This document shows positions 5,140-58,304 of a DNA stretch of 64,000 bases, piece by piece. The DNA is taken from assembly GCA_009760855.2 (NCBI GenBank), contig WPIO01000050.1, positions 2,358,501 to 2,422,500 on the forward strand. Direction: 5' to 3'. The DNA is from Cristatella mucedo. Its lineage: Eukaryota > Bryozoa > Phylactolaemata > Cristatellidae. Position 1 is the first letter of the stretch. The number at the start of each line of letters is the position of its first letter. The notes below the pieces were generated by a model. That model was given only the letters and a program-made list of their open reading frames with translations, made no database searches and was not told the origin of the DNA. The position numbers and the translations under genes are program-made.

Positions 5140-6060
5140 TGTTATCCTGGTAATAAAAATAATAACAATAGTAATCAATTTGATAAATCGCACTCAGAGA
5201 ATTCAATCTCTTTCTAGGCGCCTTAGAATTGCTGCTGTAAATGAAGCACGATCGAGAGGTTAGTGGGAGCATGCTCAAAAAACAGCAAGAGTATCATGGT
5301 TAGGGATAAAGTGCACAGAGTCAGCATGCATGTGTAGTTAGCAGCATCATGCACTAGTGTCAGCACGCATCCATAAAATGCTGTTATAAATAGAGTTTCT
5401 AATTTCTTTTTAAATGTGGAAAAGTCAGGAGATATCGTGACTCAGGTCGGGAATGAATGTCAGGGTCTGGGAGCATACGAACTAAAGACAAGGTTTTCAA
5501 AAGATTAGAGGTTTGTATGAGGTACAGGTAAACTATTAGATTCAGAAAAGTGGGCGGTACGGTGCTTAGCCTGGTGGGGCAGTAGATCTGATAGGTTATT
5601 TGAACCCAAAGAATGAAGAGATCTAAAGGTGAGTGATAAAACGGTAAAGTCGCTGCGTCGCTTGACTGGGAGCCAGTGCAGGTTGGCGAGATGTGTTGTG
5701 ATGTGGCAACTTTGACGCTCACGACAGACAAACCTAGCTGCAGAGTTTTGCACCAGCTGTAAGCGCCTGAGTGCACAAGTTGGTAGGCCAGCAAGGAGTG
5801 AGTTACCGAAGTCAAGACGGGATGTAATAAATGAATGGACCAACTTAGATTTGATATCCCTCTGTAAACGAACCCAAATTGTAGCAATTTTATGAAGCTG
5901 AAAGTAGGCAGACTTGATTGTGGAGCTTATGGGGTCGTCCAATGAAAGGTCACTTTCAAACACGACACCTAGATTTGGTACAGATATAACACGAGATATG
6001 CTGGCAGAGCCGATTGTGAGCGTTAGCCTTCACAATTTCAGAATCATCCATGGTTTTATA
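5140..6060 (-). mobile_element. LINE-B, 5'-truncated copy (RT C-terminal part)
   Basis: This is a CR1/L2-like non-LTR retrotransposon fragment in minus orientation. The A/T-rich (AAT)n-like end at about 5,150 is followed by the LINE-B 3' UTR. Two overlapping frames (5,399-5,887 and 5,505-5,963) then hold the post-catalytic part of reverse transcriptase. The frame at 5,505-5,963 begins FESDLSLDDPISSTIKSA and includes SRLDFGNSLLAGLP and RRLQLVQNSAARFVCR, the typical region downstream of the YADD box in these LINEs. A frameshift moves the end into the other frame. Its intact-frame relative is at 37,021-37,623 (+). It lies in the intron between D1 and E2. Confidence 0.85.
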
Positions 6061-15743: not shown

Positions 15744-15938
15744 TTGCGTTGAGGAATTACGAAATACATTGGGCGTCAACTCGTGGAGTCAGGCAGAACA
15801 ATTACTGTCGAGCGTCGCTAACAGCTTTCGAGAAGATAGCGAGCTCGTCGCAGCAGGATTTATTTCAAGCGGTGATGTACCCTCAGTTGCAGCTGCTGGC
15901 AAGACATCTTATTTGATGGCACCGTCGGAAGTCGATAG
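15744..15938 (+). CDS. Exon B0, diverged member of the exon B family
   Basis: The acceptor is CAATTTTAG before 15744 and the donor is GTCGATAG|GTATGG after 15938. Its length is exactly 195 bp (1+192+2), phase 2 to phase 2, identical to exons B1-B5. The frame includes VEELRNTLGVNSWSQAEQ, then LLSSVANSFREDSELVAAG, and ends APSEVDR. It aligns without gaps to B: QAEQLLSSVANSF against EADEYLSSLVNNL, and EVDR against LDDR. Its unit seems otherwise decayed. At 17,036, after a CTTACAG acceptor, a weak exon C-like frame (NEIRPESFG against DEIDEAFVQ) meets a TAG after about 23 codons. Exon B0 links the E-D and A-B-C arrays. Confidence 0.65.
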
Positions 15939-17649: not shown

Positions 17650-18026
17650 AGCAGCCATCATATGTTTTCCTATTTTCAGCTACTGTGGTTAGAGATTTAG
17701 TTCACAGAAGGCGTACAGAGATCCTAAAATATTTTAATAGTGACTACATCGGCTCTTGATACGGTTCTTTCTAAAAAAAGAATAAAGAATGTCGTGAGCT
17801 ACATCAGCTCCGATTCATGAATGTGAATTCTTTAAATTTTATATGTGAACCGACATCAAAACAAGAAAGTCATAGACACTTAAATATAGAGAACCTAAAA
17901 GTGACCCATGCTGTTTTACAAATACAATACACGATACATTGTTTAGATTTCATGGCTGCAGTGTGCAGTAGCTTTAATGCTTACGCTCGACTTAGTTTGC
18001 AGTGAATTTGTATTATTATTGCATTG

Positions 18027-18119
18027 ACTTATAAATGCCGACAACGATATGGAAGCTGATTACTCGGTTCAGAATAACGAGTTGTGTTCTTATCGACCTA
18101 ATACTAAATAAACTAATAA
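18027..18119 (+). pseudogene. Dead exon A of unit 1
   Basis: It aligns with exon A of units 3-5 (NADNDMEADYSVQNNELCS), but the acceptor AG is lost (ATTGACTTATA where the others have TTTAGGGCTGTG). An in-frame TAA also lies near the end. The GTAAGTG donor survives. A transcript would go from B0 to B1 directly, which keeps the frame because both are phase 2. Confidence 0.75.
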
Positions 18120-18221
18120 GTAAGTGAACTCCTTTGGATAATCCAGTACTAATACAATTATTTCTACTGACTTGACGTCTCAATTCTGCAAAGTTTGTGA
18201 GGACTGCTACTTTTGTTTCAG

Positions 18222-18416
18222 ATTGCCAGACAAGATACTGAAGCAAAGTGAGGAAGACGACACATTTATTGAGGCGGATGAGTATCTTAGCAGCTTGGTG
18301 AATAATCTTAAAGGTTCCTGTCAGCCTGATCCACGGGCGGCTGTAGAAAAGAGTTCAAAAGCTGCCAGTTCCGCCAACCAATCTACACTGTCACAGTTGC
18401 TCGGACTCGACGACGG
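18222..18416 (+). CDS. Exon B, unit 1
   Basis: The acceptor is TTTGTTTCAG and the donor is GACGACGG|GTAAAG. Its length is 195 bp, phase 2-2. The variable acidic start LPDKILKQSEEDDTFIEA leads into the family core DEYLSSLVNNLKGSCQP. A Ser/Ala-rich linker and the end QLLGLDDG follow. Compared with B2-B4, it differs most in the first 15 residues and in the linker (EKSSKAASSANQ against DTGSRALSPTNQ). Function is unknown; it is probably a disordered linker around a short helix. Confidence 0.8.
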
Positions 18417-19493
18417 GTAAAGTACTGAACTCTGTGGAATGTGTCCCGAGAAGCCACACATGGATTTTCATTACGGCATCGACTATTTGTCTTTTCGTTA
18501 CGCACGATTAATCTCGGAAAAGATGTGCACTGAGCTGTACAAGAATTGCAGCTCGATCATTTGCAATTCTTAAAGATGCCACGACTGCAATACTCCGTTT
18601 GGCTGAGAGTAAAAACAAATATGTAATTCTTTGCTAGCGGTTTCTTGGTTTTGAGAATAATCACATTTCTGCGGACGCTACAATATGCAGTGGTTTACTG
18701 AGAGCTAGGATACATTGGTGTGAAGATACAAATTGAGAGGAGGTGATGACTCATCACAGATTGCAAAAAAAAATAAGAGATTGCTTTGACGAGTAAAATG
18801 TCAAGAAAATAATATCATATTTGGTCATTGAGGTCCTAACTTGCTGAAGCTAAGGTTAAACAGTCTCAAGATGGAAGAAACAGCTATTCCACGAGTACGT
18901 TGGTTCAAGACAGTTAAGAAACTAGCTTCAAACATTTGACATACCATATCACGTATGACTAGAATGTCACTTTTAGTTGACAGAATGTAACCAGTTTGAT
19001 AGTACCTCAATTGATCAAGTCCCTACCGAAGCTAATACTTTTGCAGCTGAAACATTGCAATTCTAGAAAAGTCGAACGATGTCACTGCAGATACAAATTG
19101 CTCTCCAAAATTTCCACTGCTATTTAAAAACGTAGCCCACGAATGTCACTATCGGTATTAGGTCCGTTTTAAAAAACCTCAACAATTTATTTCATGAGCT
19201 GGATAATTATTTTGGTTGAAAAATTACTTTTAGCTAAGGCAGGACAGCACTATTTGGATAGCAAGACTTGTCTGCAGCACTAAATTAAAGGACAGACGGC
19301 AGACCTGAATCGCATTAGAGTGCTGCCCTGGTTAATGCAATTATTTTGCTTGCTCGGTCGTGCAAGTGCTACAGTGCAGCAAGTTTGTAATTCACCTCAT
19401 GTGACAAAGATGGTCATACTTGTACACACACGCATGCACACAAACTTAAGGCACATGCACACCTACTGTTTTATTTATTTATTTATGTGATAG

Positions 19494-19604
19494 CCATCTG
19501 GAGGTAGCATACGATGACGAAATCGATGAAGCATTTGTCCAGTCACTGAACGTTCACTCGGCTTTGAGTTTCGACGGACTTACCGATCATGATGGCAACC
19601 AAAG
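19494..19604 (+). CDS. Exon C, unit 1
   Basis: The acceptor is ATTTATGTGATAG and the donor is AACCAAAG|GTAGGCG. Its length is 111 bp, phase 2-2. The frame reads HLEVAYDDEIDEAFVQSLN, then VHSALSFDGLTDHDGNQR. The peptide is acidic, with a likely helix (DEIDEAFVQSL) and a closing DG.xxHDGNQ motif shared by all units. It lies about 1.08 kb downstream of B1. Its upstream flank has a short, interrupted CA-rich tract, the counterpart of the long (CA)n in units 2 and 3. Confidence 0.8.
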
Positions 19605-21036
19605 GTAGGCGAGGCCTCGAACTCTACTTGCTTTCAAATATCACAGTTACTCGTCAAATGTGCATGTAGTCTTTAAATTATTGCCAAAGGAAACCCCTGA
19701 CCAAAGAACATAGAAAATCATTATTTTATTAAAAGAATTACATTTTCAATTGATTTAATATTCGCTAGATCTAACCTGAAAGATATTTTTTAGGAAATAC
19801 AATGCACAGTAAACAAGCTGATTAATTTTATGAGTAGCAACTGTGACCACATCTCCCTATCTGAAAAGTAGATAATTTGTAGATGATACTTAATATTTTT
19901 TTTTATAACCAACGGAGATGCGAAACGATAGATAGAGTGTGGCCATCGGAGTTTTCCAGTTCTTCGCGGTCCAGTAAACCAAACTTGAAGCAGGCAGCAG
20001 CTAGTAAGTTCAGGTGAAAAGCTTGCTTGAATGAAATATAACGTCAATGGCCTACTTTTACTTAATCTAACGATCAACCTAGCCGTACGGTTCAGCTCTT
20101 GATGACCAACATCGAGTCAGTATTTTCTCAAAGGCAAAGGTCTTTTGAATATGCTAAAGTTAATTGCTTTAATTTGTTTTGATATGCACTCGATTTGAAC
20201 TTTTAGCTGACCCCATACGTCGAGAAAGTGAACGGTATTTTGAAGTGATTACTGGCATTGCAACGTGCAAATGGATGTCTCATCCGTTATTTGGAATAAT
20301 AACCCAAAATAACGTAGCAGCAAAAGACTGCTAAGGAAGTTTTCAGTTACAAACGCTGTGGTTGTAGCATACGTTCGCACTAACAATCTATTCAATGGCA
20401 ATACAAATACCAAATGGACTTTTGCTTAGTGCCCTGAGAGAACTTGATCTCGAGTCAGGTAATTCAAAATTCGCAGCTAATGAATGAAAAAAAAGGTCAT
20501 GCTAAATGCTTCATGCTAAATTTTGATCATATAAAAGCAAGCGTGTATCGTTATACACGAAGTGTTCTTAAGCAAAAATGGTGAAAAATTGCAGCACTTT
20601 ATTACGGTACCTAACCGACATATAATCAAGAAAGTGGCTTAGTTGCATTAGCTCCCGAACCGATTATATGTTTTCCTATATCGCCACTTGTAAACTACTC
20701 TGGTTAGAGATTTAGTTCTCATATGGCGCTACAGAGATTTCATAATACTATAATCAATAATACCTCGGCTGTTCAACCTGGTATTTCTCAAAAAGAATAA
20801 GGAATGTCGTGAGCTACATCACCTTCAATTTTGGAATATAAGTTCTTTATCTTTTCAGGTGAACATATATCAAAAAAAGCAAGTTATAAACTCTTTAATG
20901 GACAGGACTTCAAAAGAATCAATTTTGTTTTACTACTAAAGTGCTAAATTAATTTTTTAGATTTCCTTGTACAGCGTGCTGTAACTTTGATGCCTACTGT
21001 CGCAATGACTAGCAGTGACGTTTTATCTTTATTTAG

Positions 21037-21129
21037 AGTTGTAAACGCCGACACTAATGTGGAAGCTGAGTGATAGGTACGGAATAATAAATTGTGTTTT
21101 TCTCTAGCAGTAGCTGAAGTAGTTGATAA
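21037..21129 (+). pseudogene. Exon A, unit 2, with premature stops
   Basis: The borders are intact (TTATTTAG|A and GATAA|GTAAGT) and the length is 93 bp, phase 2-2. The frame VVNADTNVEAE, however, runs into TGA (21,071-21,073) and then TAG. Intact copies have TAC CAG at these codons. The exon can only be used if it is skipped, which the symmetrical phase would allow. Confidence 0.8.
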
Positions 21130-21236
21130 GTAAGTAGGCAAATTTCCATGGTTAAGTAATGTCTATTTAAGTAATTCAAATACACTGGTTGGTTCATTTA
21201 TGCCAAACTTTTTGGACACTGCTACTTTTATTGCAG

Positions 21237-21431
21237 ATTACCAGAAAAGGGAAATAAGAAAACTGACAGAGACAACACATTTAATGAGGCGGATAAGTAT
21301 CTTAGCAGCTTGGTGAATAATTTTAAGAGTTCCTGTCAGCCTGATCCGGGTGAAGCTGTAGATACGGGTTCAAGAGCTCTCAGTCCCACCGACCAATCAG
21401 CTTTGGCACAGCTGCTCGGACTCGACGATAG
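21237..21431 (+). CDS. Exon B, unit 2
   Basis: The acceptor is TTTATTGCAG and the donor is GACGATAG|GTAAAG. Its length is 195 bp, phase 2-2, with no stops. The frame starts LPEKGNKKTDRDNTFNEADK, then YLSSLVNNFKSSCQP, and ends ALAQLLGLDDR. DTGSRALSPTDQSAL is shared with units 3 and 4 apart from single changes. With exon A of this unit dead, C1 to B2 splicing still keeps the frame. Confidence 0.82.
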
Positions 21432-22474
21432 GTAAAGTGCTGCACTCTGTGGAATGGGTCACCGGAATCCAAGCCCTAATTTTCATTAAATAATTGGCTA
21501 TCTCCGTTTTCGTTACTTACGATTAATATTAGGAAAGAATGCCTGTGGAGCTGTGCAAGGATAGCAGCTTGATCCATTGAAAAACTCGTAAGTGCAACGA
21601 CTAGGATACTGCACATGGCTGAGAGTAAAAAAATATGTTATTCTTTGCTAGCTTTTTCATCGATTCGAGAATAATCAAATTTATGTGAAAGCTACGATAA
21701 GCGTTGGTTTACTCAAAGCTAGGATAAATTAGTGGGAAGACACAAATTGAGAGGTGATGAATCATCACAGATCGCCAAAGGTGATAAGAAATCCTTCAGG
21801 AGTTTAACATGTAGCCAAAACGTGCGTTCCCAGTTGAATGCTTGGACGAGGAAAATGTCACAAAACCATCTTGTTATTGAGGTCCTAACTTGCTAATTTC
21901 AAACAGTCTCTAGACGCAAGAAACAGATATTCCATGAGTACGTTGGTTCAAGTCAGTTTAGAAATTAGCTTCAAACCTTTGACATCCTATGTAACATTTG
22001 ACTAGAACGTCACTTTTAGTTGACAGAATGTAACCAGTTTTATAGAATCTCAATTGATCAAGTTACTACCGAAGCTAGTATTTTCGCAGCTGGAACATTA
22101 CAGTCGCATTCACCAGAACGATGTCACCGCAGATAGAAATATCTCATGAATGTCTGCTGACCTTAACAGACGTAGCACTACGAAATTTTCTATCCGTATT
22201 AGGTCCATTTTAGATATCAGAGAAATTTATTTCATCAGATGGATAGTTATTTTGGTTAAAAAGTGACTTTTAGCCAAGGCAAGGCAGCACTATTTAGATG
22301 GCAAGAAATGCCTACAGCGCTCAATAAAAGAACAGGTGGCAGAGCTGAATCACGTTAGAGTGCTGCAATAGCTTATGAAATTAATTTGCTTGCTAGTTCG
22401 TGCAACGTGCTACAGCTCAGCAAGTTTGCAATTCATCTCCTGTGACAAAGATGGTCATACTTGTACAAACACAT

Positions 22475-22475
<1 letters not shown>

Positions 22476-22512
<37 letters not shown>
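22476..22512. repeat. (CA)n microsatellite in unit 2
   Basis: About 18 uninterrupted CA units lie some 60 bp upstream of exon C of unit 2. The same place in unit 3 has another pure tract. Units 1 and 4 have interrupted versions. Confidence 0.95.
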
Positions 22513-22518
<6 letters not shown>

Positions 22519-22573
22519 TCTCAAACTTAAATAAATGCACACATAAGGTTTTATTTCTTTATTAATATGATAG

Positions 22574-22684
22574 CCTTCTGGAGATAGCATACGGTGAAGA
22601 AATCGATGAAGCATTCGTCCAAGCACTGAACGTTCACTCGACTTTGAATTTCGACGGACTTGATCGTCATGATGGCAACCAAAG
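22574..22684 (+). CDS. Exon C, unit 2
   Basis: The acceptor is AATATGATAG and the donor is AACCAAAG|GTAGGCG. Its length is 111 bp, phase 2-2. The frame reads LLEIAYGEEIDEAFVQALN, then VHSTLNFDGLDRHDGNQR. It is nearly the same as the exon C of units 3 and 4. The joint from B2 forms an AGC (Ser) codon across the splice. Confidence 0.82.
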
Positions 22685-24311
22685 GTAGGCGAGGCCTCGA
22701 ACTCTACTTGCTGCTAAATGTCACAGTTACTTGCCAAATATGCCTGCAGCCTTGCAATTAATGAGAAACGAAACGCCTGACCTAAATAAATAGAAAATAT
22801 TTGTGGTTTATTTAAAAATGGCATGTTTTCAATTGATTCACTATTTGCTAGACCTAACTTCAAGACAGCTGTTTGTAGAAAATGCAATGCACAGTAATTA
22901 AGTTGATTTATTCTAAGAGTAGCAACTGTGACCACAATCTTACTATCTGAAGTGGTATTAGATATATTGAAGATGATACTTATTATTTTGTCATAGAACG
23001 AATGGAGATGCAAAACAATAGATAGTGTGTGGCCATCGCAGTTTGTCAGTTCGTCGAGCTCCAGTAAACCAAACTTGAAGCAGGCAGCAGTTTGTAAATT
23101 CAGGTGAAAAGATTGCTTGATTGAAAGGTAACTCTGAACTTCAATGAATTAATAATATGAATAATCCTGAGCATTATTTGATAATCTCAACCCAATAGCA
23201 CAAGCTTATTTGAATAATAGATCACGTTCTATGACATTGCAAAGAGTTTCATTTTTACCATTCAAGCTGCACATTGCAGCATATTTTTAGAGCTAGTCCG
23301 TGATACCGATTAGAGATCCCGCTGGATTTTGTCAATGGCTTACTTTATCTTACCCTAAGGGTTAACCTTGGAGTACGGTTCAGCTCTTAATGACTAACGT
23401 TGAGTCACTGTTTTCTAAGAGGCGAAGGTTTTTCGAATATGCAAAAGTATAGTGTTAAATTTGATTTGATTTACATTCGATTTTACTTATTTTGGTGTCC
23501 AAATACGTTGAGAAAGTGAACAGTATTTTTCGGTGATTTCTGGCATCGGACATACAAATGGATTTCACGTCCATTATTCGGATTAATAACCCTTATGTAG
23601 CACTGAAAGACCACTAAGGCAGTTTTCAGTTTAAACGCTGCGGTTGTAGCTTACGTTCCCACTAATAATCTAGTAAATGGCAATACAAACACCGAATGCA
23701 CTTATGCTTAGTGCCCCGAGAGAACTTGATCTCGAGCCAGGCACTTCAAAATCTGTCGCCAAATGATGAAAATCGAGATCTGGCTTCATGCTGAATGTCG
23801 ATCATATGAAAGTAAGCATGTATATCATCATACATGAAGTGTGCTAAAGCTAACATGGTCGACAATTGTGACACGTTATTAAGGTACCCAAATGGTGCAT
23901 ACCCGAAGGAAGTTGCTTAGTTAGTTTAAGTCCCACAACAATTATAGGATTCCCTATATTACCACTTGTCAACTACTGTGAATAGAGATTTAGTCCTCAT
24001 AAGTCGCTATAGAAATTTCAAAATACTATAATCGTTAATAACTTCTCTGTTCAACCTGGTAATATCAAAAAGAATAACGAATGTCGTGAGCTACATCAGA
24101 TCCAATGTAGGAATATGAGTTCTTTTTTTCCACTTGAGCCGATATCAAAACAAGCAAGTCGCAGACACTTCAACGTACAGGAATTCAAAAGGATCAATTT
24201 TGTTTTAATAATAGAATACACAATTAATCCTGTAGATTTTCTCGTACAGCGTGCTGCAACTTTGATGCCTACGGTCGCTATGATTAGCACTGAGATTTTA
24301 TTTTTATTTAG

Positions 24312-24404
24312 GGCTGTGAACGCCGACTTGAATGTTGAAGCTGAATACCAGGTACGGAATAATGAATTGTGTTTTTCTCTGAGAGGAGCTGAAGTAGTTG
24401 ACCA
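24312..24404 (+). CDS. Exon A, unit 3
   Basis: The acceptor is TTTATTTAG and the donor is GTTGACCA|GTAAGTG. Its length is 93 bp (1+90+2), phase 2-2. The frame reads AVNADLNVEAEYQVRNNEL, then CFSLRGAEVVDQ. This is the best intact exon A together with unit 4. A longer open frame (24,115-24,408) includes intron sequence upstream of the acceptor, and that part is not conserved as coding. Exon A contributes about 31 residues to each roughly 133-residue protein repeat. Confidence 0.8.
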
Positions 24405-24513
24405 GTAAGTGGGCACATTTTCATGGTTAAGTAATAATATCTATTTAAGTAATTTAAATATACTGGGCGTTTCATTTTTGCCGAACTTAGGGACATTGCT
24501 ACTTTCATTGCAG

Positions 24514-24708
24514 GTTACCAGAAAAAGGAAATAGGCAAAATGACGGAGGCGACACATTTAATGAGGCAGATGAGTATCTTAGCAGCTTGGTGAATAATCT
24601 TAAGGGTTCCTGTCAGCCTGGTCAGGGTGAAGCTGTAGATACAGGTTCAAGAGCTCTCAGTCCCACCAACCAATCAGCTTTGGCACAGTTGCTCGAGCTC
24701 GATGATAG
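24514..24708 (+). CDS. Exon B, unit 3
   Basis: The acceptor is TTTCATTGCAG and the donor is GATGATAG|GTAAAG. Its length is 195 bp, phase 2-2, exactly 110 bp after the end of exon A (the spacing is the same in units 4 and 5). The frame starts LPEKGNRQNDGGDTFNEADE, then YLSSLVNNLKGSCQPGQGE, with RALSPTNQSALAQLLELDDR at its end. No stop codons. Confidence 0.83.
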
Positions 24709-25754
24709 GTAAAGTACTGCACTCTGTGGAACGGGTCCGCAGAATATACGCCGTAATTTTTATTAAAGCGTTGACTGTCTTTCTTTTTTGTTACTTGCGG
24801 AAAGAATGTGTGTGACCTGTGCAAGGATATCAGCTTGATACATTGAAAAAATTGAAGGTGCCGCGACTAAGATACTGCACGTGGCTGAGAGTGAAACAAT
24901 ATGTTATTATTTGTTAGCGGTTTCATCGGTATGAGAATAATCAAATTTGTGTGGAAGCTAAGCTAAGCTAAGCAGTGGTTTACTGAAAGCTAGGATAAAT
25001 CAGTGGGAAGGCAGAAATTAGAGGAGGTGATGACTCATCACGGATCGCCAAAGGAGATATGAAATCCGTCACCTGTTTACTATGTAGGCAAAACGTGCAT
25101 TCCAAGTTGAATGCTTGGACTAGTAAAATACCAAGAAACCATCTTGCCATTGAGGTCCTAATATGCTGAAGCTAATTTCAAACAGTCTCTAGATGCAAGA
25201 AACAGCTATTCCACGAGTACGTTGGTTCAAGTCAATTTAGTAATTAGCTTCAAACATTTGACATCCTATATCACATGTGACTAGAACGTCACTTTTAGTT
25301 GACAGAATGTAACCAGTTTGATAGAATCTCAATTGATCAAGTTACTATCGAAGCTAGTATTGTCGCAGCTGGAACCTCACATTCACATCAAGTAGAACGA
25401 TATCACTGCAGAGAAAAATATCTCTAGTAAATGTCTGCTGATCTTAAAACAAATTGCACCACGAAATTTACTGTCGGTGATATGTCCGTTTTATATTATC
25501 AGAGAAACTTAGTCCATGAGCTGGATAATTAGTTTGGTTGAAAAATTACTTTTAGCTAAGGCAAGACAGCACTATGTTGATGGCAAGACTTGTCTACAAC
25601 ACTAAATGAAAGGACAGGTGGCAGGGCTGAATCGCATTAGATTGCTGCATTGTTCATGCAATTACTTTGCTTGTCACTTTGTACAACGTGCTACAGCTTA
25701 GCAAGTTTTCAATTCACCTTCTGTGAAGAATATGGTCGTACTTGTACAAACGCA

Positions 25755-25756
<2 letters not shown>

Positions 25757-25793
<37 letters not shown>
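25757..25793. repeat. (CA)n microsatellite in unit 3
   Basis: About 18 CA units at the position equivalent to 22,476-22,512 in unit 2, upstream of exon C. Confidence 0.95.
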
Positions 25794-25795
<2 letters not shown>

Positions 25796-25856
25796 GCACA
25801 CCCTCAAACTTAAATAAATGCACACATAAGATTTTATTTATTTATTGATATGATAG

Positions 25857-25967
25857 CCTTCTGGAGGTAGCGTACGGTGACGAAATTGACGAAGCATTCG
25901 TCCAAGCACTGAACATTCACTCGACTTTGACTTTCGATGGACTTGATCGTCATGATGGCAACCAAAG
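25857..25967 (+). CDS. Exon C, unit 3
   Basis: The acceptor is TTGATATGATAG and the donor is AACCAAAG|GTAGGCG. Its length is 111 bp, phase 2-2. The frame reads LLEVAYGDEIDEAFVQALN, then IHSTLTFDGLDRHDGNQR. It differs from unit 2 at only a few codons. Confidence 0.82.
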
Positions 25968-27690
25968 GTAGGCGAGGCCTAGAACTCTAACTGCTGCTAA
26001 ATGTCACAGTTACTCGTACATGTACGTAGCCTTACAAATAATGCGAAACAAAACGCCTGACCTAAATAAATAGAAAATACTTTTATTTAATTAAAAATGT
26101 ATATTTTCATTTGATTTACTATTCGCTAGACCAACATTGAAAGCTATTTGTAGAAAATGCAATGCACAGTAATTAAGTTGATTTATTCTAAGATTAGCAA
26201 CTGTGACCACAATCTTACTATCTGAAGTGGAATTAGATATATTGTAGATGATACTTATTATTTTGTCATAGAACGAATGGAGATGCAAAACAATAGATAG
26301 TGTGTGGCCATCGAAGTTTGCCAGTTAGTCGAGCTTCAGTAAATCAAACTTGAAGCAGGTAGTAATCAGTACATTCAGGTGAAAAGCTTGATTGATTGTA
26401 TGGTAACTCTGAAAGTCTACACGGTTAGTAGCATTATAACAAGTTACACGACGTGCCAAGCCTGGATAGCCATTCAGCCAAATAAAAATGCCTGTGATAA
26501 CAGTGTTAAACGAATATCAATGATTTAATAATAAGAATAATCCTGAGCAATATTAAAAAAAACTCAAGCCAATAGCACAAGATTATTGGAATAATAGGTC
26601 ACGTTCTAAGAAATTGCGACGAGCTGCATTTCGACCCTTCAAGCAGCACATCGCAGCCTATTTTTAGAGCTAGTCCGTGATACCGATTAGAGATCCTGCT
26701 GGATTTTGTCAATTGCAAACTTTATCTTACCCTAACGATCAACATTGGAGTATGGTTCAGCTCTTAATGACTAACGTCGAGTCACTGTTTTCTCAGAGGC
26801 AAAGGTTTTTCGAATATGCTAAAGTCAAGTGTTTAAATTAGCTTTGATATGCCCGTGATTGTAACTTTTAGGTGACCCTATACGTTGTGAAAGTGAACAC
26901 TTTTTATGGTGATGGGTAGCATTCCATCATGCAAATAGATTTGAAATCCGTTTTATGGACTAACAATACTTTTGTAACGCAAAAAGAAGGCTAAAGCAGG
27001 CTTCAGTTTTCAACACTTTGGTTGTAGATTTCGTTCTCACTAACAATCTTTTTAATGGCAATACAAATACCGAATGGACTTTTGCTTAGTGTCCCGAGAG
27101 AACTTAATCTCGAGCCAGATACTTCATAATTCGCAGCAAAAGAATGAAAAACAAGATCTGGCTTCACGCTGAATGTCGATCATATAAAAGTAAGCATGTA
27201 TCGTCATAAATGAAGTGTGCTTAAGCAAACACAGTCCAAAATTGCAGCACTTAATTAAGGTACCTAACTGACGTATACCCGAAGGAAGTGGCTTAGTTAG
27301 TTTAGCTCCTACAACAATTATTTGATTCCTTATATTGCCACTTGTCAACTACGGTAGATAGAGATTTAATTCTCATAAGGCGCTATAGAGATTTCATAAT
27401 ACTGTAATCATGACGACCTTGGCTGTTGATCCTGGTATTTCTAAAAAACGAATAAGGAATGTCGTCACTACATCCGCTCCAATTTAGGAATATGAGTTCT
27501 TTATTTTCTTCACGTAAGCCGATATCAAAACAAGCAAGTCGCAGACACTTCAATGTACAGGAATTAAAAGTATCAATTTTGCTTTACAAATAGAATGCGC
27601 AATAATTTTTATAGATTTTCTGGTACAGCGTGCTGTAACTTTGATGCTTACCGTTACTATGATTAGCACTGAGATTTTATTTTTATATAG

Positions 27691-27783
27691 GGCTGTGAAC
27701 GCCGACATGAATATGGAGGCTGACTACCAGGTACAGAATAATGAATTGTGTTCTTCTCTAGCCGGAGCTGAAGTAGTTGACCA
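27691..27783 (+). CDS. Exon A, unit 4
   Basis: The acceptor is TTTTATATAG and the donor is GTTGACCA|GTAAGTG. Its length is 93 bp, phase 2-2. The frame reads AVNADMNMEADYQVQNNEL, then CSSLAGAEVVDQ. It is intact and close to unit 3. The C3 to A4 joint makes an AGG (Arg) codon. Confidence 0.8.
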
Positions 27784-27892
27784 GTAAGTGGGCAACTTTC
27801 AATGGTTAACTGATGATGTCAAATTGAGTAGTTGAAATTGACTGAGCTTTTCAAGTTTGCCCAATTTTTGGACACTGCTACTTTCATTGCAG

Positions 27893-28087
27893 GTTACCAG
27901 AAAAAAGAAATAAACAAAGTGACGGAGACAACACATTTATTGAGGCGGATGAGTATCTTAGCAGCTTGGTTAATAATCTTAAGGGTTCCTGTCAGCCTGA
28001 TCCGGATGCAGCTGTAGGTACGGGCTCAAGAGCTCTCAGTCCCACCGACCAATCAGCTTTGGCACAGTTGCTCGAGCTCAACGATAG
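27893..28087 (+). CDS. Exon B, unit 4
   Basis: The acceptor is TTTCATTGCAG and the donor is AACGATAG|GTAAAG. Its length is 195 bp, phase 2-2. The frame starts LPEKRNKQSDGDNTFIEADE, then YLSSLVNNLKGSCQPDPDA, and ends ALAQLLELNDR. As in the other units, the first 15 residues vary while the YLSSLVNNLK core is fixed. Confidence 0.83.
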
Positions 28088-29188
28088 GTAAAGAACTGCA
28101 CCCTGTGGAATAAGTCCCATAATCCACGCCTTAATTTTTTTTAAAGCATTGACTATCTTTCATTTTGTTACTTAGTATTAATTTCGGAAAGAATGTGTGT
28201 GAAGCTGTATAGTTGTTGTAACTTGATCCATTGAAAAAATCGAAGGTGCCACGACCAGGATACTGCACATGGCTGTGAGTGAAAAAATGTGGTATTTTTT
28301 GCTAGCGGCTTCTTCGGTTTGAGAATAATCACATATCTGTGGAAGCTAGGCTAGGCAGCGGTTTACTCAAAGCTAGGATAAATTAGTTCGAAGACAAAAA
28401 TTGAGAAAAGGTGATGACTCATCACAGATCGCGAAAGGAGACAAGAAATCCGTCGCCAGTTTACCATTTAGCCAGAACGTGCGTTCTCAGTTGATTGCTT
28501 TGACGAATACATTGTTACAAAAAATCTTTTCAGTGAGTTCCTAACTTGTTGAGTTTTTTTACCGCCTTTACATTCACGCAACAGCTATTCCTGGAGTACG
28601 TTAGTTCAAGTCAATTTAGAAATTAGCATAATATATTTCACATCCTATACCATATATGATAAGAATGTCACTTTCAGTTGACATAACATAATTAGTTTGA
28701 TAGATTCTTAATGGGTCAAGTTACTACCGAAGCTATTTTTTTCGCAGTTCAAACGTCACATTTCCTAATAACTCGAATGATGTCACTGCAGATATAAATT
28801 GCTCTCCTAAATGTCAACTGGTCTTAAAAAACGTAGCACCACGAAAGTCAGTATCGGTATTAAGTTCTTTTTTAGAAGACCATAGAAATTTAGTTCTTGA
28901 GCTAGATGGTTATTGTTTTGAATTACTTTTAGCTAAGGCATAACCGCACTATTTAGATGGTAAGACTTGTCTACAACACCGATTTAAAAGATAGGCGGCA
29001 GAGGTGAGTCGCGTACGAGTGCTGCAATTGTTTACACAATTATTTTGCTTGCTCGTTCGTGCAACGTGCTACACTACAGCAAGTTTGTAATTCACCCCAT
29101 GTGACAAGCATGGGCATGTTTTTACACCCACACATACACACGCACAAACACAGTTACATGCACACATATAGTTTTATTTATGCGATAG

Positions 29189-29299
29189 GCTTCTGGAGGT
29201 AGCATACGGTGACGAAATTGATGAAGCATTTGTCCAAACACTGAAAGTTCAATCGACCTTGAGTTTCGACGGACTCGATCGTCATGATGGCAACCAAAG
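29189..29299 (+). CDS. Exon C, unit 4
   Basis: The acceptor is ATTTATGCGATAG and the donor is AACCAAAG|GTAGGCG. Its length is 111 bp, phase 2-2. The frame reads LLEVAYGDEIDEAFVQTLK, then VQSTLSFDGLDRHDGNQR. Its first base is G instead of C, so the joint with B4 becomes AGG (Arg) and not AGC (Ser). Confidence 0.82.
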
Positions 29300-31026
29300 G
29301 TAGGCGAGGCATCGAACTCTTACTTTCTGTCATATGTCTCAGTTAATCTAAAATATGGATGTAGCCTTTAAATTTATGCGAACCAAAACTCCTGATCCAA
29401 AGATCTAGATAATAGGTATTTGTTTAAATAATGTGCATTTTCAATTGATCTACTATTCGCTAGACCAAACTTGAAAGCTATTCGTAGGAAATGCAATGCA
29501 CAGTGAACAAGTTGATTTATTTTGCGTGTAGCAGCTGTGACCACAATCTCCCTATCTGAATTTGAACTAGATATTTTTTTGAGATAACGCCTAATATTTT
29601 TTCAGAAGTAATGGAGATGCAAAACGACAGATAATGCGTAACCATTACAGTTGGCCAGTTCGTTGAGCACCTGTAAAACATACCTTAAAGGAGGCTGTAT
29701 TCAAGAAGCTCAGGTGAAGTAGTTGCATGGTTGAATCGTATCACTAAAAATCTAGCTGGTTCAGTAATATTAAAAACAGGGCCAAGACGTGCCTAAATCG
29801 GATAGCCATCAAGACAATTTTTCACTGCTTGTGATACAAAAGTGTAAAATGAACTTCAATGATTTAATACTTCGAATACTCCTGAGTTTTATTTTATTAA
29901 GTGAGTCCAGTAGTACAAGCACATATAACAATGCGTCGCATTTTATGAAATTGTAGCGAGTTGCATCTTGATCCTTCAGGCAGGGCATTGCAACACATTT
30001 TTAGAGTTAGTCCATTAAAAAAATTAGAGATACTCGCAAATTTTGTCAATGAGCTACTTTACCTACCCTAAAAATCAACCTTCGAGAACATAGTTCAGCT
30101 CTTTATGATCAACGCTGAGTCTATAATATCTCAGAAGCTAAAGTTTAACGAACATGCTAAAGTCAATTGTTTAAATTTGTTTTAATATGCACTTGATTTT
30201 AACTTTTAGCTGACCCTATATGCAGAAAAAGTGAAAAGTATTTTGCGGTGATTACTTGCATCGCAACATGCAAATCGGTTTCACATGCGTTATTTGGACA
30301 GACACCCTTATGTAGCACTAAAAGACGGCTAAGGAAGTTTACAGTTTTAAAGACCACGGGTTGGGCCTACATGCCCACTAATAATCTATTTAATGACAAT
30401 AAAAATACCAACAGAGCTTTCGTTCAGTGCTTTGAGAGAAGTAGATCTCTAGCCAGGTACTTCAAGATGCATGGTGAAAGAATGTAAACCAAGATATGGC
30501 AACATGCTAAATGTCGATCATATAAAAGCAGGTATCGTCATTTATTAAGTGTTCTTAAGTAAAAACGGTTACAAATAGCCACACGTTATTAAGGCATCTA
30601 CCCGACATATACCCAAAGCAAGTGGCTTAGTTAGGTTAGCTCCAGCAACGATTATATGTTTTCCTATATAGCCACTTGTCAACTTCCGTGGATAGAGACT
30701 TGTTCTCATAAGGCGCTATAGAGATTTCATAATACTATAATCATAACTACCTTTGCTGTTGATCCTAGTAGCTTCTCAAAAAAGAATAACGAATGTCGTG
30801 AGATATATCAGCTCCAATGTGGGAATATGAGTTCTTTATTTTTACATGTGAACCGACATCAAAACAAGCAAGTCATAGACACTTGATTGTAAATGAATTG
30901 AAAAGGATCAATTTTGTTTTACAAATATAATGCACAATTGATTTAATAGATTTTCCGGTTTTAGTATGCAATAACTTTGATGTTTATGGTTTCTATGATT
31001 AGCAATGACATTTTATTATTAAATAG

Positions 31027-31119
31027 AGCTGTGAGCGCCGAAACTAATATGGAAGTGGAGTACCCTGTACAGAATAATGAAGTATTATCTTCACTATCGG
31101 GAACTGAAGTAACTGACCA
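31027..31119 (+). CDS. Exon A, unit 5
   Basis: The acceptor is TTATTAAATAG and the donor is ACTGACCA|GTAAGTG. Its length is 93 bp, phase 2-2. The frame reads AVSAETNMEVEYPVQNNEV, then LSSLSGTEVTDQ. It is intact and more diverged than units 3 and 4, and the single Cys of the other copies is lost. The acceptor has only a short pyrimidine tract. Confidence 0.75.
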
Positions 31120-31228
31120 GTAAGTGAGCAAGTTTTGATGGTAATGTAATAATGTCTAATATAGTAATTTAAATCGGCTGGGCGTTTTGATGATGCCGAA
31201 TTTATGGACACGGCTCTTTTTATTTCAG

Positions 31229-31423
31229 CTTACCAGAACGGGGAGATAAGGAAAGTGACGACGATGACACATTTCATGAGGCTGCTGAGTATCTTAGCAG
31301 CTTGGTGAATGATCTTAAGCTGATCCGGCAGCCTGATTCGGGTGCCAATGTAGGTACGGGTTCTAGAGCTCCCAGTCCCACCGACCAATCAGCACTGGAA
31401 AGGTTGCTTGGACTTGACGATAG
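31229..31423 (+). CDS. Exon B, unit 5, with GC donor
   Basis: The acceptor is TTTATTTCAG. The donor reads GACGATAG|GCAAGTA: GC replaces GT, but the rest matches the strong AG|GCAAGT pattern typical of functional GC-AG introns. Its length is 195 bp, phase 2-2. The frame starts LPERGDKESDDDDTFHEAAE, then YLSSLVNDLKLIRQPDSG, and ends ALERLLGLDDR. If the donor is not used, the frame reads on from the splice point for 25 more codons to a TAG at 31,512-31,514. That gives a possible alternative C-terminus, QVLHSVECVPKAALNVFVKK onward. Confidence 0.75.
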
Positions 31424-31504
31424 GCAAGTACTGCACTCTGTGGAATGTGTTCCCAAAGCCGCTCTAAATGTCTTTGTAAAAAAAATAATAGCTGATTTAA
31501 AAGC

Positions 31505-31680
31505 CACTGTATAGCGAAAGAAGATGAGAATTTATGGTCATCGCCGCCCCTTTCCTTGGCGATAAAGAAGTGTTCACCACAGGATAAGAACCTACGATCT
31601 CTGGATCGAAGTCGAGAAAAGGAACCGCCTTACCGCCCTCACAGTTATCTATTATCTCTATCGTTGCTTTATGCAATAAC
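31505..31680 (-). mobile_element. SINE-1 copy
   Basis: This is in minus orientation. CACTGTATAGCGAAAGAAGA, ATCGCCGCCCC..GGCGATAAAGAAG, a tRNA B-box-like ATAAGAACCTACGATCTC, then AACCGCCTTACC correspond to the SINE copies at 34.8 kb (minus) and 58.3 kb (plus). It inserted 80 bp after exon B of unit 5, in the intron before exon C. Confidence 0.75.
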
Positions 31681-32614
31681 AATCAGAAACAACAGGTGTC
31701 TAGCTGTACACGGATGAAAGTGGATCCATCCAAAAAAGTCCAAGTTGCTTGAACTAAATTACTCTGCTTCAGTGAGAAAAGAGCGATTAAATTTGAAATA
31801 AGCGGCTGCTCTGATTTCAGAATGAACAATTTACTATGTGTGAGGCGAAGAGCGTTGGTAACTGAGAGCAAGGCTACAGCAGTGAAAAGACTGGAATTAA
31901 ACGAATGTGAAAACCCTCATCCTAACTTACTGAAGTGGTTTAAAACCCGTCACCACTTTACAATACAGGTGTTATATGTATTCCTAGGAGTTTTCTTAAT
32001 CAAGTATAATGCCACGAAGATCACGTGACAATGAGATCATAAGGACTCGATATAAGACTTAAACAACCTCGGCATGCAAGGAGTATTCTACGAATACGTT
32101 AGTTCAAGTAAATTTTAAATAAGGTTCTACATTTCAAAGATCAAAGGTCATATATAACTATAATCTAACTTAAAATTTAAAGAATTTAGTAAATTTGATT
32201 TACTAGCAATTGTCCAAATTTTCATAGAAGCTAGTTCTCTGATAACTGATACCTCAAAATTCTCTTAGAATTGGACTATTTCACTTTAGTTATAAATTGC
32301 CCACCTAAATTTACGCTACTCTTCAAAAACATTGCACCTCGAAAGTCGCTCTCAGTACTAGGTCATTTATACACAACCTCGTAATTTTACTATATAATGG
32401 ATTAAAAAAGTGGGGTGAAAGATTAGTGTTAGCTGAGGCAGGGCAACGTTCTGCTGACAGTGATAAGAACAATCAGTACTGGAAGCAAGTTGCATTCGAA
32501 TGCTACACTTCTGTAAATAACTGTTTTGCTTGCCCGCTCGTGCAACCTACTACAATCATATTTTTAGCATGCCTCCTATGACCTGCATGGGTATGTTTTT
32601 ATTATAAATTCTTT

Positions 32615-32616
<2 letters not shown>

Positions 32617-32656
<40 letters not shown>
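32617..32656. repeat. (AT)n microsatellite in unit 5
   Basis: Twenty AT units just upstream of the exon C of unit 5, where the other units carry CA-rich tracts. Confidence 0.95.
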
Positions 32657-32662
<6 letters not shown>

Positions 32663-32673
32663 TTACATTACAG

Positions 32674-32788
32674 CGTTATGGAGGTAATGTGCGACCTACA
32701 AATTGACGAAGAGTTTTCCCAAGCGCTGAGCCTTCCTCCACTTGTGAGTTTTGACGTACCGTCAGTTCATGATGACGGCCAAAGGAAG
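32674..32788 (+). CDS. Exon C, unit 5, last recognised exon of the array
   Basis: The acceptor is TTACATTACAG and the donor is CAAAGGAAG|GTAAAG. The frame reads VMEVMCDLQIDEEFSQALS, then LPPLVSFDVPSVHDDGQRK. Compared with the other C exons, four extra bases lie before the donor. The length is therefore 115 bp and the exon ends in phase 0 instead of phase 2. The next exon must therefore differ in phase from A, which fits the array ending here. No following exon could be placed with confidence. Confidence 0.7.
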
Positions 32789-33610: not shown

Positions 33611-34784
33611 TTAAATGATTTGACTTATATGGAAGTCAATTCAAAGTTAAATAAAACAGTTTTGATGAAAATCTTTCTTAAGTATGGGTATCATTTCGAT
33701 CATACGTAAATATTTTTTATTCAAGAAGAGAATGTCTTCTTTCGCTTAAAGACACGAGTAAAAATGTCTCACATCGAACGCTAAGCTTCTTTTGTGGAGG
33801 GAGGCATGGAATTAAATGACAGCGGTTTTCTGCTAGACCAAGAATCTTGGCTGTAGCTATGAAACTGAAGATTTCTGGAGTTTGGATTATGTAGATACTA
33901 AAACAAAAATAAAGCGTTAATCATGGAGAGGCTAAGAAATTAGGAACGTTGTGCATTCAGATTACTATCAATAATAATATATTCGACTAGATTTAAGCTA
34001 TGCGAGGGTAATGTGCTTAATTTCAATATAATTCTTGAAAACTCTATATATTAGGTTCATTTTGACAAGATACAACAGTAGTTACGGTTAGATAAGACAT
34101 CGAATAGCTGCGACTGCACAGCTCAAGCTGGGCCAAAACCACCCGTATAAGTAATGTCTCTTTCAGGAGTGAAATTGTGCTTGAAAGTACTTACTTTGTT
34201 CAAGCCAATATGTGCACTTGAATCACGTGGCCACGTTCGTTTCGTTACCAATATTTTAAAGGGTCAAAGGCTCTTCACAAGTCATGCGAAATCATTAAGC
34301 CATCATACCATGACTGACAATGTGATCGCCTCGAATTCTCAGCAAGAAGATGTCAGAGGACTGAGTGCAGAGACGCCTTCTCTCCCCCGACGATCTTCGA
34401 GACTAGCTGAAAGACGACTCTGGTCCACAAACTATCTATGGTTTCATCAGAAATGAAGGACCAGCAGGACCTGTAAACGAGGCTGGGCATAAGGCTCTGA
34501 CAGCTGTGATGACTAAAGTTATCAGTGAGATGCCTTTCTGGTGAAGCAATATCTAGATGGTGCTGCACACGGAAGCTTCTACTGCGGTTGCCTTGCGAGC
34601 TTATAAAATAATTTTAAATAATATTGTATCCTAGATTGATTTAATTTCTTCAGTAGTACACGGATTAAGGCAATGCACTAGGAATGCAGCCACTATTTAG
34701 TCCACTTCGTTAGTGAACCCTCTTGCTCGGTCTCTGAAGTTATCCCTAAAGCGGATCTCTAGTAAGATGGACGGAGCCTCTAAA
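33611..34784. other. Mostly featureless; one weak open frame
   Basis: AT-rich DNA. The + frame at 34,154-34,456 (100 codons, with ETPSLPRRSSRLAERR near its end) is preceded by a good acceptor-like TGTCTCTTTCAG at about 34,167. It could be a terminal exon of a cellular gene or of the tandem-exon gene, but nothing else supports it and no domain is recognised. Confidence 0.3.
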
Positions 34785-34960
34785 TAAATAAATACTAGCT
34801 GTTTAAACAGCCTCTTTTTGTATAGCGACAGAAGAGCCTCGACGGCTATCACTACCGCTTGCAGTGGCGATAAAGGATCGCCCACCGCAGGAATCGAACC
34901 CACGACCTCGGGACCGAGGTCATGAAAGAAACCGCCTTACCGAGTGAGCCTCTACCAGGA
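34785..34960 (-). mobile_element. SINE-1 copy, well preserved
   Basis: This is in minus orientation. AAATAAATAAATACTAGCTG (3' tail) is followed by AACAGCCTCTTTTTGTATAG, CGACAGAAGAGCCTCGACGG, CTATCACTACCGCTTGCAGT and GGCGATAAAGGATCGCCCAC. Then GGAATCGAACCCACGACCTC is the complement of a tRNA T-arm/B-box, and AACCGCCTTACCGAGTGAGC the complement of a D-arm/A-box. This is a tRNA-derived SINE. Confidence 0.88.
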
Positions 34961-36439: not shown

Positions 36440-37870
36440 TGAATGTCTGTGAAGCAAAACATTAACTTTATCCAATGCTGCAGCAGATTTCAATGGTATA
36501 AATGACTATCACAGCAATGATTTCTGGCACCTATCTAAGGTCTTAGAATTGTGGCTCGCAGAAACCATGAAGCGAGAAATGATTACGGCTAGGTCCTATC
36601 TCAATGGGAGACTCCAAAGTATTGAGGTGAATGGACAAAGATCGTCCGAGGTACCTTTGAAATATGGGATACCTCAGGGCTCTGGACTAGGTTCGGTTCT
36701 TTTCTAAGTTTATACTCTCCCTATTGCTTACGTGATTGCCATGCACAATCTAGGCTTTCACTTCTATGCGGATGACACAAAGTTGTACATTTGCTTTGAT
36801 CCCTCCCAGCCTTCGAGCACCTCAAATTCTCTCAACTCCCTTGCTGCATGTATTGATGATATCCGCACGGATGGCAGCAAATTTTCTAAAAGTAAACGAT
36901 GATAAAAATAGCCTACCATTTATGGGCAAACCCAGTGTGATTCAGACACGAGAAAGGCTGACGCTCAAAATTGGCTCTGCCAGCATATATCCTGTTGAAT
37001 CAGCTTGAAATCTAGGCATCATGTTCCAAAGCGACCTCTCGTTAGACGACAACACAGTCAAATCTGCCTACTTTCAGCTACATAACTTTGCTAAAATTCG
37101 GGCTTGTTTAGATAAGGATACCACGTCCAAGTTGGTCCATGAGTTCGTGACGTCCCATCTCGACTTCTGCAACTCACTGCTTACTGGCCTACCAGCATGT
37201 GCGATCAGGCGATTGCAGCTGGTGCAAAACTCGGCAGCTAGGCTTGTCTGTCGTGAGCGTCGCATCACACATTGCCACATCACACCACTTCTCGCCGACA
37301 TGCACTGGCTCTCTGTCAAGCAATGGATTGACTTCAAGGTTTTGCCGCTCACTTTTAGGTCACTTAATTCTTTGGCTCCAGCCTATCTTTCAGATCTACT
37401 CCCCCACCAGGCTAAGCATCGTACCACCTGCTTTTCAGAATACAACAGTTTACCAATACTTCGTACAAACCTCAAATCCTTTGGAGACCGTGCATGTAGT
37501 TCGTATGCTCCCAAAGCCAGAAAATCCCTCCCGACTTGCATCAGAACATCCCCTGACTTGACCACATTTAAAAAGAACTTACAAACACACCTATTTAGGA
37601 CAGCATTTAGTGGGTCCCTGTGATTCGTTCTTCACGTGCTTATGCGTGCTGACACTGTGCATGCTGCCACTAACCACATTTGCATGCTGACCCTGTGCAT
37701 GTCACCCCTAACCATGCTAATCAAATTGTTTGTTTATCAAGCATGATCTTACTCACCATTTAATTGCATTTCACTTTGCAGCAAATTTAAAGCGCCTAGA
37801 AAGAGATTGAGTTCTCTGAGGGCGCTTTATCAAGTGCATTATGATTAATATTATCATTACTATTATTACA
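36440..37870 (+). mobile_element. LINE-B copy with the best preserved RT C-terminus
   Basis: In plus orientation, RT motifs appear in order: YLNGRLQSIEVNGQRSSEVP, GIPQGSGLGSVLF and FHFYADDTKLYICFDPSQP (YADD box). The continuous frame at 37,021-37,623 then starts FQSDLSLDDNTVKSA, includes SHLDFCNSLLTGLPACAIRR, HWLSVKQWIDFKVL and LAPAYLSDLLPHQAKHRT, and ends in a TGA. The 3' UTR ends AAAGCGCCTAGAAAGAGATT, then GAGTTCTCTGAGGGCGCTTT and an ATTATTATT-like tail at about 37,870. The upstream part has stops and frameshifts, so the copy is dead. It is the reference for the tail fragments elsewhere. Confidence 0.88.
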
Positions 37871-46940: not shown

Positions 46941-47454
46941 TAAAAGTCTTGGTTATGGCAGGGCTAAGTTGGTCTGCCAGTGAAGACCACAGAGATGAAG
47001 GTATAGGGTCTTCAGGAGACGAGCTCTTTTTGCTAGACCTTATTAAGGCAGCCACATCACAGGCAGAAACACCGGAGAACCTTTAAAGAAAGGTAACAGG
47101 TTGAGGAACGGCGATTGATTTGGTCTGAGGGGGCTTAATAGAGGTACGAATGTGCACAATTTTTTTTAGTAAAGAAGGCTGAAAACATTTCGGCTGAGCC
47201 CTTAATATCTGGGGATTCAGACCTCAAAGCATTGTCCAGTAAATGGTTTACCGTCTTATAAATCTGTTTAGTGTCCGACTGGCAGGAATTCAGCTTTCTA
47301 ATGAAAAAAGAAGCCCTGGCTTTTTTTAAGCTTTTGGGTGTAAACTCGAAGGAAGTCTTTAAAATTGACTAGGTCTGCCTCAGACCCCGATTTCTTGAAA
47401 CGACGTTGCAGCCTGTGCTTAACACGGCACATCTTAAGGAGTTTTTTTTGTAAA
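46941..47454 (-). pseudogene. LINE-A linker between endonuclease and RT
   Basis: A minus-strand frame at 47,519-47,298 (FNLQKKLLKMCRVKHRLQRR, ADLVNFKDFLRVYTQKLKK) is typical of the region between the endonuclease and RT domains in CR1/L2 elements. It ends at a stop. The remaining 350 bases up to the RT have lost the frame. Confidence 0.6.
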
Positions 47455-53900: not shown

Positions 53901-54389
53901 ATGCTTGTGCTGCTATCAACACCTAGATACAAGTTTCACGTACCCTCAGAGAAGATTTTTACATTCGTAATAATGTTTTCTGTTACTTTTGTAGAGCATC
54001 TTTCAGCTTGAACTATACGTAGTGTAAAAATTTACAAGGTACAAAAGCCCGAGCCCATCATTTGGCCTGTTGCATTAGTTGACTAATCACACGATATGTG
54101 CATTTTACTCTGAGAAAAATGTCTCTGAGCACTCTAACACGCGTCAATGGAAAAGTATCAATTGGTCGGTGACTGCAAGTGCAACTTCTGTATGCTACGC
54201 TCATCACACGTGCGAGGCATAGATCCAACGCCAACGGTAGACGCGCCCTGTTTGGACTCATTCACCATTCGCAGACTCTTCCGGCGGCCACAGCCTATCC
54301 CTGAGCAGCAGTACACAATCCCGGAGCCGCAATAAAGTTACAGGGAAATTCTGCACCCCTAGGGCCCCAGTGGCCGCTCGTGGCACAGA
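53901..54389 (+). other. Flank of the CpG island, with one weak open frame
   Basis: AT-rich to about 54,150, then rising GC. A + frame from an ATG at 54,147 to a TAA at 54,335 (MEKYQLVGDCKCNFCMLRSS, then RLFRRPQPIPEQQYTIPEPQ) is protein-like but has a poor start context and no known domain. Confidence 0.3.
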
Positions 54390-58258: not shown

Positions 58259-58304
58259 AACACATATGAAAGCACAGAAGAGCACATACACACGCATGCA
58301 AAAG

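Follow-up and report, generated by a model that had tools for sequence, protein, structure and literature searches.

Tandem duplication of a multi-exon segment and a candidate two-exon protein repeat in the bryozoan Cristatella mucedo

How has a bryozoan gene come to hold five regularly spaced copies of the same set of exon-like segments, and which of these segments encode protein? The question is raised by a stretch of 64,000 nucleotides from Cristatella mucedo (GenBank assembly GCA_009760855.2, contig WPIO01000050.1, positions 2,358,501 to 2,422,500 of the forward strand), hereafter the window. An earlier reading of the letters alone (the sequence-only reading) had described five units, each composed of three exons, A, B and C, that together specify a repeat of ∼133 residues. 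We favor, with a probability of about 0.6, a spliced gene on the plus strand in which one region has grown, probably through unequal crossing-over, by tandem duplication of a whole 3-kilobase (kb) segment to five copies, each with B and C as its coding exons.

Comparison of the window with itself shows five head-to-tail copies of a 3.0–3.4 kb segment at ∼17.6–32.8 kb. The repeated entity is the whole segment of ∼3 kb together with its introns: for example, 20043–23138 aligns with 23331–26413 over 3125 columns at 83% identity. The array thus displays the head-to-tail exon and intron repeats that characterize intragenic tandem multi-exon duplication, and the earlier view that a multi-exon unit had been amplified is borne out, introns included. 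Distances from one B to the next are 3015, 3277, 3379 and 3336 base pairs (bp), in agreement with the regular 3.0–3.4 kb spacing previously described. Across the 10 pairs of copies, intron identity spans 0.565–0.832: the inner units (2, 3 and 4) are closest (0.775–0.832) and the outer units (1 and 5) most diverged, which is the pattern expected from unequal exchange. A tree of whole units sets 2 and 3 apart from 4, 1 and 5 with support of 0.999, leaving the order among 1, 4 and 5 unsettled (0.292); a tree of exons only is poorly supported (0.80 and 0.14).

Coordinates of the exons are given in Table 1. B measures 195 bp and the A-like segment 93 bp in all five units, and C measures 111 bp in four; these are the lengths first reported, except that C of unit 5 (C5) extends for 115 bp to a GT donor shifted by 4 bp. 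All A, B and C segments begin and end in phase 2 (one base completes the previous codon and two are left over), the end of C5 excepted. With B symmetric in 5/5 units and C in 4/5, and C5 terminating either in phase 0 or with a stop codon, the array has the phase symmetry of intragenic tandem multi-exon duplication, and the coordinates agree with the phases assigned before. The splice sites are less regular than the sequence-only reading, which gave every unit conserved sites, would have them. AG acceptors precede A in four of five units and B and C in all five; GT donors stand at the common position after A in five units, after B in four and after C in four. Only units 3 and 4 are fully canonical. 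Units 1 and 2 are without A (A1 has no acceptor and one stop, A2 two stops), and unit 5 is non-canonical at both B5, where the donor reads GCAAGT rather than GT, and C5. A GT does occur four bases past the B5 donor, where the exon would end in phase 0, incompatible with the phase-2 start of C5.

Joining all open exons would yield about 604 residues (1813 bp, summed lengths). The units could instead be alternative cassettes, with one or a few included per mRNA, in which case the array would diversify isoforms and not lengthen a repeat protein: B and C1–C4 are divisible by three and symmetric, such that any copy number keeps the frame, and a conserved non-coding block upstream of A in every unit could serve splice choice. 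This block (27280–27680 in unit-4 coordinates, upstream of A4) has a mean pairwise identity over the five units of 0.74–0.79 in 100-base windows, compared with 0.55–0.75 between B and C, and its similarity between copies equals that of parts of exon C. Splicing control and recent exchange between copies are both possibilities; that the block is itself coding was rejected, as single-base insertions and deletions (indels) between copies leave no one coding frame. In the passages cited here, tandem exon duplication is tied in many cases to mutually exclusive splicing (PMC9013439). In the array, however, each B is followed by a C, and an exclusive choice would require coordinated skipping of B–C blocks; moreover, the last unit has an ending of its own (C5), which suits serial joining. 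We consider cassettes rather unlikely. A further alternative, that the array comprises several short genes, or contains a gene end, rather than one frame over five units, draws on the fact that the unspliced frames of B5 and C5 run to stops at 31514 and 32818, respectively, both possible alternative gene ends. Symmetric phase-2 ends, in contrast, suit serial joining, and we regard this alternative as very improbable. CA or AT microsatellites are located upstream of the C acceptors in units 2, 3 and 5 (22465–22518, 25757–25801 and 32617–32662). Tracts of this kind can influence splicing in other cases.

Evidence that B and C are coding comes from comparison with the introns of the same units. 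The control is a five-copy alignment (unit-4 coordinates 27300–29420, exons excluded) along which windows were slid by one base; the windows therefore overlap and are not independent. None of 1104 windows of 195 bp is gap-free in all five copies. At 111 bp, 65 of 1281 windows lack gaps in every copy, and none of the 65 is open in any of six frames across the copies. B and C, by comparison, are gap-free and open in one common frame in 5/5 copies, against 0/1104 and 0/1281 windows, and their earlier designation as coding exons is upheld. In each of the 10 pairs of units there are 0 indels in 399 exon bp versus 17–27 in 1654–1761 intron bp. The identity of B over five units exceeds that of all 111 sampled intron windows, and the identity of C over units 1–4 is reached by none of 129.

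The substitutions are also informative. Nonsynonymous divergence (dN) lies under intron divergence in 10/10 pairs, and synonymous divergence (dS) is within 20% of intron divergence in seven. Neither B nor C contains a stop in any of the five copies, whereas neutral simulations with an equal number of differences acquire a stop in 69–97% of runs. The pooled ratio of nonsynonymous to synonymous differences per site (pN/pS) for B+C is 0.63 in frame, as against 0.90 and 0.95 for the same exons in the other two frames and neutral-simulation medians of 0.82–0.87. Constraint is uneven along B: codons 16–30 are slowest (pooled pN 0.072, ratio 0.42), codons 31–64 are intermediate (0.177, 0.61) and codons 1–15 are near neutral, not above (0.214, 0.79). 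The variable start of B (the first ∼15 residues), remarked upon earlier, thus holds as a trend. We conclude that B and C are coding and that the constraint upon them is weak or patchy.

Exon A is a different matter. A1 has ‘tg’ in place of the AG acceptor plus an in-frame TAA, A2 has in-frame TGA and TAG, and the segment is open only in units 3, 4 and 5. It is gap-free in the five copies, yet in 0/6 frames is it open in all five. Its identity is reached by 47 of 136 intron windows, and pN/pS among A3–A5 is not below neutral in any of the three pairs (p 0.29–0.35). One comparison runs in the opposite direction to an absence of constraint: A3 and A4 share an identity of 0.882, against 0.781 for their introns. 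Given the neutral pN/pS of the open copies and the failed intron-window control, A was rejected as a constrained exon. The comparison of dN/dS between units proposed by the sequence-only reading, in which values near 1 across all exons would have counted against coding, gave a split result: B+C are not near 1, and A nearly is. The uniform three-exon unit of ∼133 residues is not supported in that form, since A is dead in two of the five units and has no detectable constraint. What the data support as the repeat is the B+C pair (306 bp, 102 residues), A being either optional or in decay; symmetric phases would allow its loss or skipping with the frame intact.

The peptides encoded by the exons are acidic: net charge is negative in all 14 (−4 to −9) and, on a charge-hydropathy plot, 11 of the 14 fall on the disordered side. 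AlphaFold2, applied to exons singly, predicts isolated helices without a compact fold for both B (mean predicted local distance difference test (pLDDT) 67.4, predicted template modeling score (pTM) 0.30; helices 11–32 and 50–59) and C (mean pLDDT 59.6, pTM 0.23; helices 12–22 and 29–32). The best conserved stretch of B is DEYLSSLVNNLK; the helix motif of C is DEIDEAFVQAL, and the second helix of B, near its end, carries an LxxLL pattern. A clathrin-box pattern is found in four of B1–B5 (B4 is without it), is absent from B0, a B-like candidate upstream of the array, and arises in 179 of 5000 shuffles of B2. Scaffold proteins with LxxLL or clathrin-box motifs were considered for function, and the two patterns are leads only. 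On these predictions the repeat is best read as an acidic chain that is largely disordered and contains short amphipathic helices.

That no family could be recognized from the sequence-only reading accords with searches of Pfam and the PDB. In Pfam, no match above the curated cut-off was obtained with five joined A-B-C proteins, six B members and five C members; the only two sub-threshold matches were DUF7341 (expectation value (E) 0.12) and EspA_EspE (E 0.098, one of six members). A sequence search of the PDB returned nothing up to E 10, and a C profile likewise nothing; a B profile gave one match, to tektin-1, at chance level (E 0.37). In viral contigs searched with the unit peptide, 13 stretches fit the pattern and none encodes a relative, and no paper was found in the literature for any of four peptide strings from the repeat.

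Several of our own observations weigh against a translated, helical repeat under selection. Identity of C over all five units is matched or exceeded by 10 of 129 intron windows because C5 has diverged: its identity to C2–C4 (0.613–0.640) is not above that of the introns (0.652–0.657). Selection on B+C is weak, with only three of ten non-independent pairs at p < 0.05 (0.0225, 0.0355 and 0.0385), and pair 1–2 has pN/pS at the neutral value (0.85 versus 0.82). Variable columns are about equally common at the three codon positions (27, 23 and 27 of 64 in B; 15, 17 and 17 of 36 in C). As to the protein, the helix models of B and C are of low confidence, the A3, B0 and C5 peptides plot as folded by charge and hydropathy, and the LxxLL pattern, present in 5/5 of B1–B5 and absent from B0, also turns up in 391 of 5000 shuffles of B2, making it weak evidence of function.

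Could the array then be a pseudogene in decay, or a tandem duplication without coding function, with the coding look of B and C no more than a legacy of the ancestral segment? Two of five A copies are dead, the B5 donor is not GT, pN/pS of B+C is not significantly under neutral in 7/10 pairs and the codon positions are about equally variable, all of which would fit. Decay sits poorly, however, with the absence of stops and indels from B and C in 5/5 copies at intron divergences of 0.19–0.66, and the B5 donor, gcaagt, matches the consensus of working GC-AG introns. We judge this explanation quite improbable.

The preferred reading, a coding array grown by duplication, suggests the following scheme. 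Unequal crossing-over would duplicate the 3-kb segment, leading to five copies, and each copy would add B+C, the frame being kept by the phase-2 ends. A (31 residues) could be lost or skipped with no harm to the frame. If the copies are joined in one mRNA, then the product would present short helical binding motifs (in B, DEYLSSLVNNLK and the C-terminal LxxLL-type helix; in C, the DEIDEAFVQAL helix) on variable flexible linkers, which we take as the most economical mechanism, and form a modular protein of variable length. Tentatively, such a protein could act as a multivalent scaffold with a valency set by copy number, although the odds are somewhat against this.

Across the window the observed/expected CpG ratio is 0.87, a value that makes a vertebrate origin unlikely, since vertebrate genomes are depleted in CpG, and GC content is 36–60% per 2-kb block; neither Rfam nor ARAGORN gave a match there. 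Reverse-transcriptase and endonuclease fragments like those of long interspersed nuclear elements (LINEs) occur on both strands: Pfam assigns two of the open frames to RVT_1 and Exo_endo_phos, and the rest were assigned by similarity. Derivation of the exons from a transposable element was rejected, as none of the protein-level self-matches listed (120 of 153, with matches having both ends inside 17.4–32.9 kb excluded beforehand) overlaps A, B or C. The intron between B5 and C5 contains an insertion (31500–31682) resembling 34700–34936 and 58270–58593 (E about 1e-5), which is probably a dispersed short repeat. At 54300–55600 lies a GC-rich region (60% GC in 54001–56000) with long open frames on both strands; two frames tested are without an above-threshold Pfam match.

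The window holds three further exon-like segments, X1 and X2 upstream of the array and X3 toward its right end. An exon scan was trained on B, C and X1, which makes its ranking of these circular, and allowed GT donors only, which cut B5 short; among exons it was not trained on, it picks up X2, X3 and A3 and omits A4, A5 and B0. X1 and X2 differ in length by three bases, are both open and have a pN/pS of 0.56 (neutral 0.88, p 0.0335); they may be 5′ exons of the array gene and of a neighboring paralogue. In the scan, both X1 and X3 run to a GT donor in phase 1, and the same end of X2 was read by eye. Because B0 and B1 start in phase 2, at least one further exon would be needed between. X2 and X3 are related at the protein level (score 80, reached by 0/1000 shuffles, the best of which scored 60) and X1 and X3 weakly so (score 44, reached by 6/1000). 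Among the self-comparison matches listed, X3 has no DNA match of at least 150 bases at E 1e-10, and its likeness to X2 may thus reflect a paralogous gene that starts near the right end of the window. As for B0, its scores against B1–B5 are reached by 72, 0, 4, 2 and 78 of 1000 shuffles. It was rejected as a firm exon: open AG-195-GT intervals arise by chance (the window has 11 on the plus strand, including B1–B4 and B0, and nine on the minus), the B profile gives −1.6 bits and the exon scan passes it over.

Table 1. Exons, exon-like segments and mobile-element fragments in the 64,000-nucleotide window.
Feature	Position	Strand	Basis
A1, dead A-like segment (acceptor AG missing, TAA in frame)	18027..18119	+	splice-site and stop check
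Exon B1, 195 bp, phase 2-2	18222..18416	+	splice sites, window control
Exon C1, 111 bp, phase 2-2	19494..19604	+	splice sites, window control
A2, dead A-like segment (in-frame TGA TAG)	21037..21129	+	splice-site and stop check
Exon B2, 195 bp	21237..21431	+	splice sites, window control
Exon C2, 111 bp	22574..22684	+	splice sites, window control
A3, open 93-bp candidate exon	24312..24404	+	splice sites; indistinguishable from neutral
Exon B3, 195 bp	24514..24708	+	splice sites, window control
Exon C3, 111 bp	25857..25967	+	splice sites, window control
A4, open 93-bp candidate exon	27691..27783	+	splice sites; indistinguishable from neutral
Exon B4, 195 bp	27893..28087	+	splice sites, window control
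Exon C4, 111 bp	29189..29299	+	splice sites, window control
A5, open 93-bp candidate exon	31027..31119	+	splice sites; indistinguishable from neutral
Exon B5, 195 bp, GC donor (gcaagt)	31229..31423	+	splice sites
Exon C5, 115 bp, ending in phase 0 at the shifted GT donor; unspliced frame to stop 32818	32674..32788	+	splice sites, open frame
B0, weak candidate for an older B-like exon; 195 bp, phase 2-2, helix in matching position	15744..15938	+	shuffle test, B profile
X1, exon-like segment	2320-2606		protein-level similarity
X2, exon-like segment	7592-7881		exon scan, which preferred longer interval to 7970
X3, exon-like segment	near 61512-61820		exon scan
LINE-like reverse-transcriptase/endonuclease fragment, just past C5	33128-33595	+	Pfam (two of all fragments) or similarity
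LINE-like reverse-transcriptase/endonuclease fragment	37009-37620	+	Pfam (two of all fragments) or similarity
LINE-like reverse-transcriptase/endonuclease fragments	42481-43203, 5508-6029	-	Pfam (two of all fragments) or similarity
LINE-like reverse-transcriptase/endonuclease fragments	45348-46574, 46578-46952, 47787-48848	-	Pfam (two of all fragments) or similarity

Genes with arrays of this general type are known. Kringles are a known folded domain, and the repeat of nebulin is an actin-binding repeat of known family. In the passages cited, kringle IV type 2 of LPA has two exons per kringle in units of about 5.6 kb, tandem in one gene, and nebulin has a large protein-coding tandem repeat unit of over 10 kb (PMC11201333). 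LPA, so described, resembles the array in carrying a multi-exon genomic unit in tandem within a single gene, but its copies are highly homologous, whereas the units here are 57–83% alike in intron, give isolated-helix models and have no Pfam match; to nebulin the array showed no similarity in Pfam and PDB searches. NBPF Olduvai triplets are tandem genomic units of about 1.6 kb encoding a repeated protein domain, grouped in threes, as set out in the text cited (PMC9313022). Their sequence is another one, and the three units of NBPF form a higher-order repeat, whereas the array has three exon-like segments in one unit. Teleost Piccolo, in the portion cited, has tandem zinc-finger exons whose number shifts by exon duplication and loss, with diverging stretches between conserved motifs (PMC3484663). 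Tandem exon amplification is common to both; the Piccolo repeat, however, is one exon and a known zinc finger. Micro-exon genes of schistosomes, as far as the cited passages describe them, have symmetric exons of 6–36 bp, a phase-2 exon start among them, and poorly understood products (PMC5825161). Most coding sequence of such genes is in these short exons; those of the array are 93, 111 and 195 bp, in tandem with introns. What sets the array apart from these known systems is its sequence and the fact that some copies have lost an exon.

By analogy with LPA and nebulin, the array is best placed within a known mode of growth, tandem multi-exon duplication, with only its sequence unfamiliar. A bolder proposal is that it encodes a lineage-restricted repeat protein outside described families, made of B–C pairs of acidic amphipathic helices, with a copy number that differs from one individual or species to another; under the phase-2 rule, one exon would have been free to die in two copies while the others keep working, such that exon composition and copy number are free to vary along the polypeptide. 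This we find unlikely. The interest of the array lies in an unrecognized repeat with a clear coding signature, and in a natural case of symmetric exons that tolerate, in some copies, the loss of one of their number. Should copy number prove polymorphic, the array would be a coding variable number tandem repeat.

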